Origin: Bacteroidota bacterium
GTDB lineage: Bacteria > Bacteroidota > Bacteroidia > 2-12-FULL-35-15
DNA length: 52,350 nt
Direction of reading: 5' to 3'
Assembly (NCBI GenBank): GCA_025963715.1
Contig: JAOQAG010000020.1
Span: forward strand, 1-52,350
Shown piece after piece: positions 21,760 to 44,380 of the stretch. The position numbers and the translations under genes are program-made. Under the pieces are notes generated by a model, which was given only the letters and a program-made list of their open reading frames with translations, was not told the DNA's origin and searched no databases. Every line of letters starts with the position of its first letter. Position 1 is the stretch's first letter.

Positions 21760-21814
21760 CACAGAGGCACAGAGAGAAAGGAGTTTATGTTGAGGTTACA
21801 TGATTAATTGTGGG

Positions 21815-21900
21815 TTGTCAGCCTGAGCTTATTGAAGACTGTGCGAGAGGGGAGAAGTGTTATGAAAGTGCTGAGCGTGCAAAATAATTAAATATAATCA
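21815..21900. repeat. Probable deletion derivative of the GIY-YIG element
   Basis: The left part (21815-21857: TTGTCAGCCTGAGCTT..GAAGACT.TGCGAGAGG) matches the left repeat of the GIY-YIG unit at 21916-21957, and both lead into ATGAAA. The right part (21874-21900: AGCGTGCAAAATAAT...TATAAT) resembles the sequence following the GIY-YIG stop codon (22277-22306). I read it as the same element with its coding region deleted. The right-end similarity is imperfect. Confidence 0.55.
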
Positions 21901-21915
21901 TAATTAGAACGAGCG

Positions 21916-22277
21916 TTGTCAGTCTGAGCTTGTCGAAGACTATGCGAGAGGAGAAGATTTATGAAAACGATGTACGTTTATATTTTAGAATGCAATGATA
22001 AATCTTATTATACCGGAGTTACAAATAATTTAGAATTACGTTTTCAGCAGCATTCAGTAGGGATAAATAGGAATTGTTATACATTCACAAAACGTCCGTT
22101 AAAAATTGTCTTTTATGAAATGTTTAATGATCCAAACGCTGCAATTGCTTTTGAAAAGAAAATAAAGGGCTGGAACAGAAAAAAGAAAGAAGCATTAATG
22201 AAAGCTGAATTTCATTTATTGCCTGAATTATCAAAATCGAAATCCCGCCCACGGTCTTCGACAAGCTCAGACTGACA
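21916..22277. mobile_element. Putative GIY-YIG-encoding element with terminal inverted repeats
   Basis: A left repeat reading TTGTCAGTCTGAGCTTGTC then GAAGAC starts at 21916, and its reverse complement GTCTTCGACAAGC then TCAGACTGACA ends the unit at 22254-22277. The GIY-YIG ORF starts 3 nt after the left repeat (21957) and takes its TGA stop from the right repeat. Repeat and gene thus form one compact unit of about 360 bp. No transposase is present, and mobility is an inference from this layout and the deleted-looking neighbour at 21815-21900. Confidence 0.55.
21961..22275 (+). CDS. GIY-YIG endonuclease domain protein (UPF0213-like)
   Basis: The 104-residue protein is essentially a single GIY-YIG domain: MYVYILECND, the second motif YYTGVTNN, the catalytic-type Arg in NLELRFQQHS and the metal-binding-type Glu in AIAFEKKIKGW, followed by the Lys-rich RKKKEALMKAEF. 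This small form is widespread in Bacteroidota and no substrate is established. The C-terminal tail KSKSRPRSSTSSD is the translation of a dispersed inverted repeat and is unlikely to be structural. The gene sits between lpd and hemH without functional connection, consistent with insertion. Confidence 0.88.
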   Translation: MKTMYVYILECNDKSYYTGVTNNLELRFQQHSVGINRNCYTFTKRPLKIVFYEMFNDPNAAIAFEKKIKGWNRKKKEALMKAEFHLLPELSKSKSRPRSSTSSD

Positions 22278-22361
22278 GCGCACAAAATAATATAAGAATA
22301 TAATAAAAAAATAACCCCGGTGAAACCCTGACCCCTCAGTGTTCTCCGTGTTAAATAAGCT

Positions 22362-44162: not shown

Positions 44163-44380
44163 TGTCATCCCGGGCCTGACCCGGGATCTGCCGTTTAAGG
44201 ACTTTGTTTTTTGCCACAGATTCACGGATTAAAATTAATAAAAAATTTACACAGATTATTACAAAATCGCTCTGCGGTTTTATTTGTGAAATGGATTTTT
44301 ATCTGAAAAAATCTGTGAATCTGTGGCTTTAACCGGATGCTACAAACATTTATGAGATCCCGGGTCAGGCCCGGGATGAC
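44163..44380. repeat. Composite nested inverted repeat element
   Basis: The outer arms are two copies of the REP hairpin in inverse orientation: TGTCATCCCGGGCC... at 44163-44187 and its complement GATCCCGGGTC...GATGAC at 44356-44380. The inner arms are GCCACAGATTCACGGATT (44213-44230) and AATCTGTGAATCTGTGGC (44310-44327). The centre near 44265-44282 forms a third small hairpin (AAATCGC/GCGGTTTT). A near-copy of the inner part is at 49314-49429. Confidence 0.85.

Follow-up and report, generated by a model that had tools for sequence, protein, structure and literature searches.

The GIY-YIG gene of the window (the whole 52,350-nt stretch of DNA analysed here) most likely belongs to an autonomous, self-spreading element, in which a minimal GIY-YIG nuclease gene is framed by a tagged hairpin repeat of its own type, present as two inverted copies (REP–nuclease–REP); we give this reading a probability of about 0.7. 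Linkage of gene and repeat, correspondence of repeat type to nuclease clade, and presence or absence at orthologous sites were observed directly, and from these sequence data we infer cleavage by the nuclease and mobility of the unit.

As claimed in the first-pass annotation, the open reading frame encodes a GIY-YIG protein (PF01541, E = 2.2e-19), and an inverse repeat supplies its last codons and TGA stop (Table 1): a repeat search of the window gave two inverted arms lying 313 nt apart, with the end of the gene inside the right one. The arm is tagged with TGTC, and its stem, judged by eye, is about 5 bp long, starts with AG, and is short and imperfect. The motif GTCNNNCTGAGCNNNNCGAAGNC, allowing up to 2 mismatches, occurs three times in the window, all at this locus, versus 0.05 expected, and it is rare in the host genome, where two of the 3 matches in 4.9 Mb are the arms of the window gene. 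The repeat had been said to end 3 nt before the ATG, but the direct repeat stops 6 nt before it. A gene-less copy had also been described just upstream, and this claim held in part: the left end is directly copied over 40 nt, 101 nt upstream, at 88% identity, whereas the resemblance of 21874–21903 to the right outer flank (22277–22306) is modest, namely 73% over 30 AT-rich nt (equalled by 4 of 1000 dinucleotide shuffles and by 3 of 1000 random window stretches), and a right inverted arm, sought in 21814–21911, was not recognised. This copy, a left end followed by a stretch that weakly matches the right outer flank, is by its sequence only a partial derivative.

Table 1. Features of the GIY-YIG locus and of a gene-less doublet in the window (positions are those of the window)
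Feature	Position	Strand	Basis
Left inverted arm, TGTC-tagged and REP-like, tag outward	21913–21940	+	28 nt, 96% complementary to 22254–22281
GIY-YIG nuclease gene, 104 aa; Y7, Y17, G19, R27, H31 and E65 present	21961–22275	+	PF01541 at 70 bits, residue conservation, AlphaFold model
Right inverted arm, tag outward; gives last codons and TGA stop	22254–22281	-	Repeat search
Left repeat of gene-less copy	21814–21853	+	88% identical to 21915–21954
Remainder of gene-less copy: ATGAAA, then weak likeness to right outer flank	21854–21911	+	Repeat search, shuffles
Gene-less type-B doublet, tags outward	44164–44380		Inner ends like type-B leader and trailer (by eye)

The host assembly (G000, 4.9 Mb) contains seven GIY-YIG matches, one of which is inside a 606-aa UvrC-like frame. 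Five of the remaining six genes lie between inverted arms or palindromes 310–315 nt apart, whose sequences differ: besides the window gene, two genes on contig 3 have GTCATCCCG..CGGGATC arms (type B), L007 on contig 38 has a terminator-like palindrome and adjoins a tRNA-Met gene, and L008 on contig 16, also within arms or palindromes, adjoins a tRNA-Arg gene. For L010, which lies beside L007, no separate arms were found (score 9). In a sample of 36 genomes of the genus, at least 109 standalone matches (open frame <200 aa; the figure counts the matches listed, and weak genes may be missing) were taken with their flanks, together with seven UvrC-like controls, which were picked by frame length and sequence, not by search. 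Arms were scored by aligning the left flank with the reverse-complemented right flank (250 nt each), and a score of 14 or more was called strong; at 696 random sites the 99th percentile was 13 and the maximum 26, and all seven controls scored 11 or less. A midpoint-rooted tree of 99 proteins, from which ten of the 109 were omitted as broken or short, was divided without regard to support values into two superclades, S2 with 62 genes including that of the window and S1 with 37.

Strong arms were found at 45 of the 61 S2 genes with flanks, compared with 2 of the 696 random sites, and at 7 of 34 S1 genes; local coincidence was thereby ruled out as an explanation of the window locus. Of the 45 strong S2 left arms, 37 carry GTCA (counted without its preceding base) at their outer end and 8 do not. 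By a strict definition, with a tagged hairpin on both sides and both tags outward, 19/60 S2 genes, 0/33 S1 genes, 2/8 left-out genes, 0/7 UvrC-like controls and 2/1361 random sites were positive, and 7/60 S2 genes had both tags inward. Four of the ten omitted matches have arms scoring at least 19, and one (L111) resembles the start of a UvrC gene. The proposal of a compact element with a REP/RAYT-like layout built on a GIY-YIG nuclease is borne out by the arms at S2 genes, by the agreement of their type with the nuclease clade, and by the cognate repeat numbers, the doublets and the filled and gene-less sites described below, while repeats at both ends are not general among homologues: 16 of the 61 S2 genes had no strong arms, and S1 genes are tied to tRNA genes instead.

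The proteins belong to the GIY-YIG superfamily by both the Pfam match (70 bits) and the catalytic residues. GIY-YIG nucleases use Tyr, Tyr, Arg and Glu in catalysis, and in the aligned S2 proteins Y7, Y17, H31 and E65 are present in 59/59 and R27 in 58/59. Among 19 pairs, dN/dS (Nei-Gojobori) was 0.05–0.18 in 12; four pairs were saturated at silent sites, with dN of 0.05–0.16, and the three with dS of 0.13 or less gave 0.25, 0.43 and 0.88. Substitution patterns of this kind show the S2 nucleases to be under purifying selection, with their catalytic residues conserved. In the AlphaFold model of the window protein (mean pLDDT 80), no domain was seen besides GIY-YIG and a helical tail, and its best structural matches were the UPF0213 proteins BH0048 (1zg2, E 1.6e-5) and EF2693 (1ywl, E 9.9e-4), which are the closest solved relatives by both sequence and fold. 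Weaker matches to Slx1, a branched-DNA nuclease (from 0.011), and to UvrC (from 0.09) would fit a nuclease that may act on folded or branched DNA. PHROGs and PADLOC gave no match for the two proteins tried, so a phage or defence gene found no support there, and NCBIfam gave none for the window protein; a group I intron endonuclease model matched three of four proteins below threshold.

The first-pass annotation expected its repeat to recur around GIY-YIG genes in the host and in related genomes. Inverted repeats do frame such genes there, but their sequence differs by clade, and one repeat common to all of them was ruled out, since the window motif occurs three times in the host. The arms are GTCAGTCTGAGC..GAAGA and similar for MYVYILECSD-type proteins, GTCAGTTCGAGC..GAGAAC for LFKYLYVYILKCSD-type proteins, GTCATTTCGAG..GAGAAA for NYYVYILKCAD-type proteins, type B for MNLNxAYVYIL-type proteins, GTCATCCTGAA..TTCAGGATC (type C) for KIGYVYIMS-type proteins and GTCATTGCGAGG..GCAATC (type D) for KRGGAVYI-type proteins. 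A Mantel comparison of arm type with nuclease clade gave r = 0.686 (37 elements, 642 between-genome pairs, 0 of 2000 permutations as high) and r = 0.683 with one element per homologous locus (n = 24, 0 of 2000 permutations); the input was 37 of the 45 strong S2 arms, 8 having been dropped for lack of GTCA at the outer end.

The copy numbers of the repeats also follow the genes. Type-B repeats occur in 11 of the 36 genomes, with 328 copies in the host, and were found in 7/7 genomes with a B gene versus 4/29 without one. After subtraction of two copies per gene, the excess of cognate copies remained (p = 4.6e-6 for B, 0.0022 for C, 9.3e-4 for D and 8.3e-4 for A2, in tests that make no correction for the non-independence of the 36 genomes, and with gene clades assigned by eye and L077 of G001 excluded from clade D). 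Two of 12 non-cognate comparisons fell below 0.05 (0.011 for A2 repeats and 0.044 for C repeats, both with B genes), and the four repeat patterns read backwards had 0 matches in all 36 genomes. The presence of repeat and gene is not strictly coupled, because the host has 17 type-D repeats and no D-clade gene, and in four genomes (G003, G007, G009 and G026, 80–98% complete) type-B repeats were present and no B gene was found. In host contigs C1, C3, C6, C7, C8, C9, C10 and C12, a type-B repeat lies about 75 nt or less from a contig end; the assembly therefore probably broke at doublets, and their number may be underestimated.

Framed nuclease genes extend over several phyla. In a scan of species genomes with the S2 alignment, led by clade D, 39 of the best 80 of 567 relatives had arms of at least 14, versus 1 of 480 null sites. 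Among these best 80, arms of at least 20 came from records titled Bacteroidetes and its genera, Clostridiales, Oscillospiraceae, Verrucomicrobia, Spartobacteria, Alphaproteobacteria, Rickettsiales, Gammaproteobacteria, Chloroflexi and Firestonebacteria, and the Nostoc and Anabaena loci had none at this level. GTCA pointed outward in 22 of the 39 armed loci, inward in 5 and neither way in 12. A motif like GTCATTGCGAG (one mismatch) occurred with tags out on both sides in 41 of 73 loci with full flanks (null 0/372), with tags in on both sides in 11/73, and on any side in 55/73 (null 24/372). In a plasmid collection 36 records matched, and 8 of the 10 genes taken with flanks had arms of at least 16, from S. 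meliloti, N. aromaticivorans, A. lipoferum, N. gonorrhoeae, Sinorhizobium sp. K101, Sphingobium, Aeromonas and Rhizobium CIAT894; the other 2, from Rhizobium tumorigenes and Photobacterium, had none. The records of Neisseria gonorrhoeae, Aeromonas caviae and S. meliloti Ak57 are chromosome-sized, so 'plasmid' is probably a label error. Tags pointed outward in 7 of these 8 loci and toward the gene in Sinorhizobium sp. K101 (by eye).

Filled and gene-less sites could be compared between relatives, and both states were seen. In three aligned Sphingobium plasmids, REP–gene–REP separates fnrL from a response regulator gene; where the gene is missing from this site, TYG64 and TYG74 hold one REP tagged at both ends, and two other plasmids hold none. 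In A. lipoferum, the gene and its flanking doublets lie between sufB and sufC, where three aligned Azospirillum relatives have a short spacer with no gene and no REP recognised. Among 30 genus loci upstream of hemH, the gene was present in 5 and missing in 25; in 15 of the latter lpd is the next gene upstream of hemH, and in the 7–218 nt that separate them no such repeat was seen by eye. For Rhizobium CIAT894, each of the listed relatives shares one side alone, either the insertion-sequence part on the left or the gene on the right, so this locus gives no filled/empty comparison. The Azospirillum and Sphingobium alignments, inspected by eye, showed no recognisable target-site duplication. The differences at these sites may reflect gain or loss, so that the gene-less states could be losses.

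These comparisons bear on a rival explanation by homing, according to which a free-standing homing endonuclease cuts bare REPs and is gene-converted into them through the REP halves, the REPs themselves being spread by other means. The single double-tagged REP of Sphingobium TYG64 and TYG74, at the very place of REP–gene–REP in the filled plasmids, fits this model. Against it, unless they are losses, stand the two Sphingobium plasmids without a REP at that site, the three Azospirillum relatives with none recognised in the sufB–sufC gap, and the 15 genus genomes with the short lpd–hemH spacer. A further objection comes from the gene-less doublets described below, whose ends are similar to the element's own leader and trailer, as expected of derivatives and not of mere targets. 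Taken together, we regard homing as rather improbable.

Gene-less doublets have the orientation of the nuclease arms. Close pairs (up to 150 nt) were tag-out in 39 cases and tag-in in 3 for type D (among 150 sites listed), and tag-out in 14 and tag-in in 3 for type B in the host (among 83 host sites listed). In ten type-B doublets from the host with spacers of 29–44 nt, mostly one end of the spacer is like the trailer (tcataaa..) and the other like the leader (tgccaattaa..) of the nuclease element; at 7 or more of 8 positions, the leader was matched in 7/10 and the trailer in 8/10, against shuffle probabilities of 0.002 and 0.003 per doublet, the shuffles preserving base composition only. Gene-less doublets with ends like those of a coding element are known as MITEs, and these ten host doublets share the termini of the type-B element in the same manner; they differ from MITEs in that no target-site duplication was recognised and the parent enzyme is no known transposase. 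The idea of gene-less derivatives is supported by the type-B doublets of the host, which bear ends like those of the element; the window's own upstream copy is a partial derivative. The type-B doublet in the window (Table 1; 192 nt between starts) encloses no nuclease gene and was not among the type-B sites used for the doublet and neighbour counts. When same-type tag-out neighbours 300–460 nt apart were inspected (among the rows listed, which cover all 56 type-C sites and part of the other types), 7 of 8 enclosed a GIY-YIG gene, the exception being on contig 79 of G007; three tag-out pairs 164–269 nt apart enclosed none.

Two further loci were noted. The L258 doublet lies inside a longer inverted repeat: beyond the tags, the two sides share an identical stretch of 50 nt, parts of which recur around other doublets. 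At L217, upstream of hemH in G006, two extra repeat copies precede a framed nuclease gene that has an in-frame stop; the first is followed by ATGAAAATG, like a truncated gene start, which parallels the gene-less copy of the window.

A second alternative, that the REPs are moved by another enzyme (e.g. a RAYT/Y1 transposase) with the GIY-YIG genes as cargo, appears very unlikely to us. Y1_Tnp matches above the cut-off are indeed present in 28 of the 36 genomes (the two in the host being weak, 26–30 bits), and at one of 12 non-host Y1 loci, L272 in G011, the gene lies near a CGTC-type doublet, GTCATTTCGACC..GAAAT, with tags outward. However, no Y1_Tnp match was found in G035 (99% complete), which carries the cognate genes along with 39 type-B and 16 type-D repeats; G007 and G033 also lack one. 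Neither host Y1 locus has a CGTC-type doublet, and one of them (L281, G000:C7:200850-203062) has instead a 20-nt inverted repeat with GTAG at the gene-proximal ends, as RAYT REPs have, which points to a conventional RAYT/REP pair distinct from the repeats of CGTC type. With a CGTC-type doublet near 1 of the 14 Y1 loci examined and none of these matches in G035, a RAYT was judged unlikely as the mover of these repeats; passenger genes would also not account for arm type tracking the nuclease clade, or for 7 of 8 element-sized inserts being this one GIY-YIG family. Finally, we give hardly any credence to the notion that the repeats are immobile terminators or insulators kept by selection around a small repair nuclease: hairpin repeats do adjoin the gene ends, and some palindromic S1 arms look terminator-like, but the hundreds of dispersed copies (328 of type B in the host), the mostly outward tag, the clade-specific type and the presence/absence at orthologous sites would be left unexplained.

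The self-spreading element has its closest parallel in REP/RAYT (TnpA-REP) systems and REPINs, described as small genes between inverted hairpin repeats, with enzyme-lineage-specific repeats and dispersed gene-less doublets (PMC3116915, PMC6006769). All three traits recur here: the small framed gene, the repeat type specific to the nuclease lineage (Mantel r 0.69) and the dispersed gene-less inverted doublets. The framed gene, however, encodes a GIY-YIG protein (PF01541) and not an HUH Y1 transposase, and the tag is CGTC/TGTC (GTCA at the outer end in 37/45) rather than the GTAG of RAYT REPs. By enzyme and tag, the GIY-YIG/REP system is best placed beside REP/RAYT, working like it, and not within it.

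The repeats themselves resemble the CGTC-tagged REP superfamily, whose description (Di Nocera 2013, PMC3733652) gives a CGTC/TGTC/CCTC tag, a stem of 8–9 bp mostly starting with AT, a loop of 4–5, a predominance of inverted doublets, occurrence in several phyla and apparently no dedicated transposase. The end tag agrees (GTCA in 37/45 strong S2 left arms, TGTC in the window arm), as do the many dispersed, mostly inverted copies (328 of type B in the host), whereas the window's own type has only 3 matches. By eye, the type-B stem is 8 bp with a loop of 5–6; that of the window arm, also by eye about 5 bp and starting with AG, is shorter than in the published families. The difference is the associated GIY-YIG nuclease gene, where PMC3733652 reports no associated transposase. 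Of the species for which that account reports CGTC REPs, Sinorhizobium meliloti, Azospirillum lipoferum, Novosphingobium aromaticivorans and Neisseria each contain a framed nuclease gene. With GIY-YIG homing endonucleases of the I-TevI type, as presented in PMC1564403, the element has in common the catalytic domain and a selfish-gene logic; it differs in the inverted REP frame, and no intron or intein and no separate DNA-binding domain was seen. A literature search on GIY-YIG with REP, CGTC or palindromic repeats, mostly at abstract level and with subscription papers and preprints outside its scope, yielded, among the papers listed, none that we recognised as linking them, and within the same scope no later report of a partner enzyme for CGTC REPs; PMC9465073 mentions a RAYT gene and a GIY-YIG gene only as items in its list of clade-specific genes.

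We infer, as the first-pass annotation did, that spread would be driven by the nuclease. It would recognise its cognate repeat, either as a folded hairpin or cruciform or as duplex, and cut at or near it; host repair would then copy the REP–gene–REP unit to other sites, or else a doublet without the gene. By this mechanism, the scattered doublets would be derivatives that are not autonomous, a role also proposed for REPINs with respect to RAYTs, and these GIY-YIG proteins may be the dedicated partner reported as missing for CGTC REPs. If they do move CGTC REPs, they would constitute a second, independently evolved enzyme–repeat partnership beside REP/RAYT, based on a hydrolytic nuclease. Such a partnership would be a very small candidate DNA-mobility system, which offers testable protein–repeat pairs and might explain the origin of some bacterial intergenic repeats.

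A broader proposal, which we advance tentatively and at somewhat less than even odds, is that minimal GIY-YIG genes form an unrecognised mobile class built on a single nuclease of ~95 aa, of which one branch generates CGTC REPs across phyla and its sister inserts into tRNA genes, both aiming at hairpin-forming loci. With regard to the sister branch, 30 of the 37 S1 genes lie within 250 nt of a tRNA gene, all 30 co-directional with it, compared with 0 of 62 S2 genes. A partial direct copy of the tRNA gene was found across the nuclease gene in 25 of 31 tRNA-linked genes scored (29 S1 and two broken) at a threshold of 14, where 89 null comparisons scored 10 or less; the copy is the 3' part when the tRNA gene is upstream and mostly the 5' part when it is downstream. 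This arrangement looks like insertion into tRNA genes with their restoration, and S1 would then be a candidate tRNA-gene-targeting cassette. The tRNA-linked S1 loci include L007, L051, L059, L061, L087 and L112.
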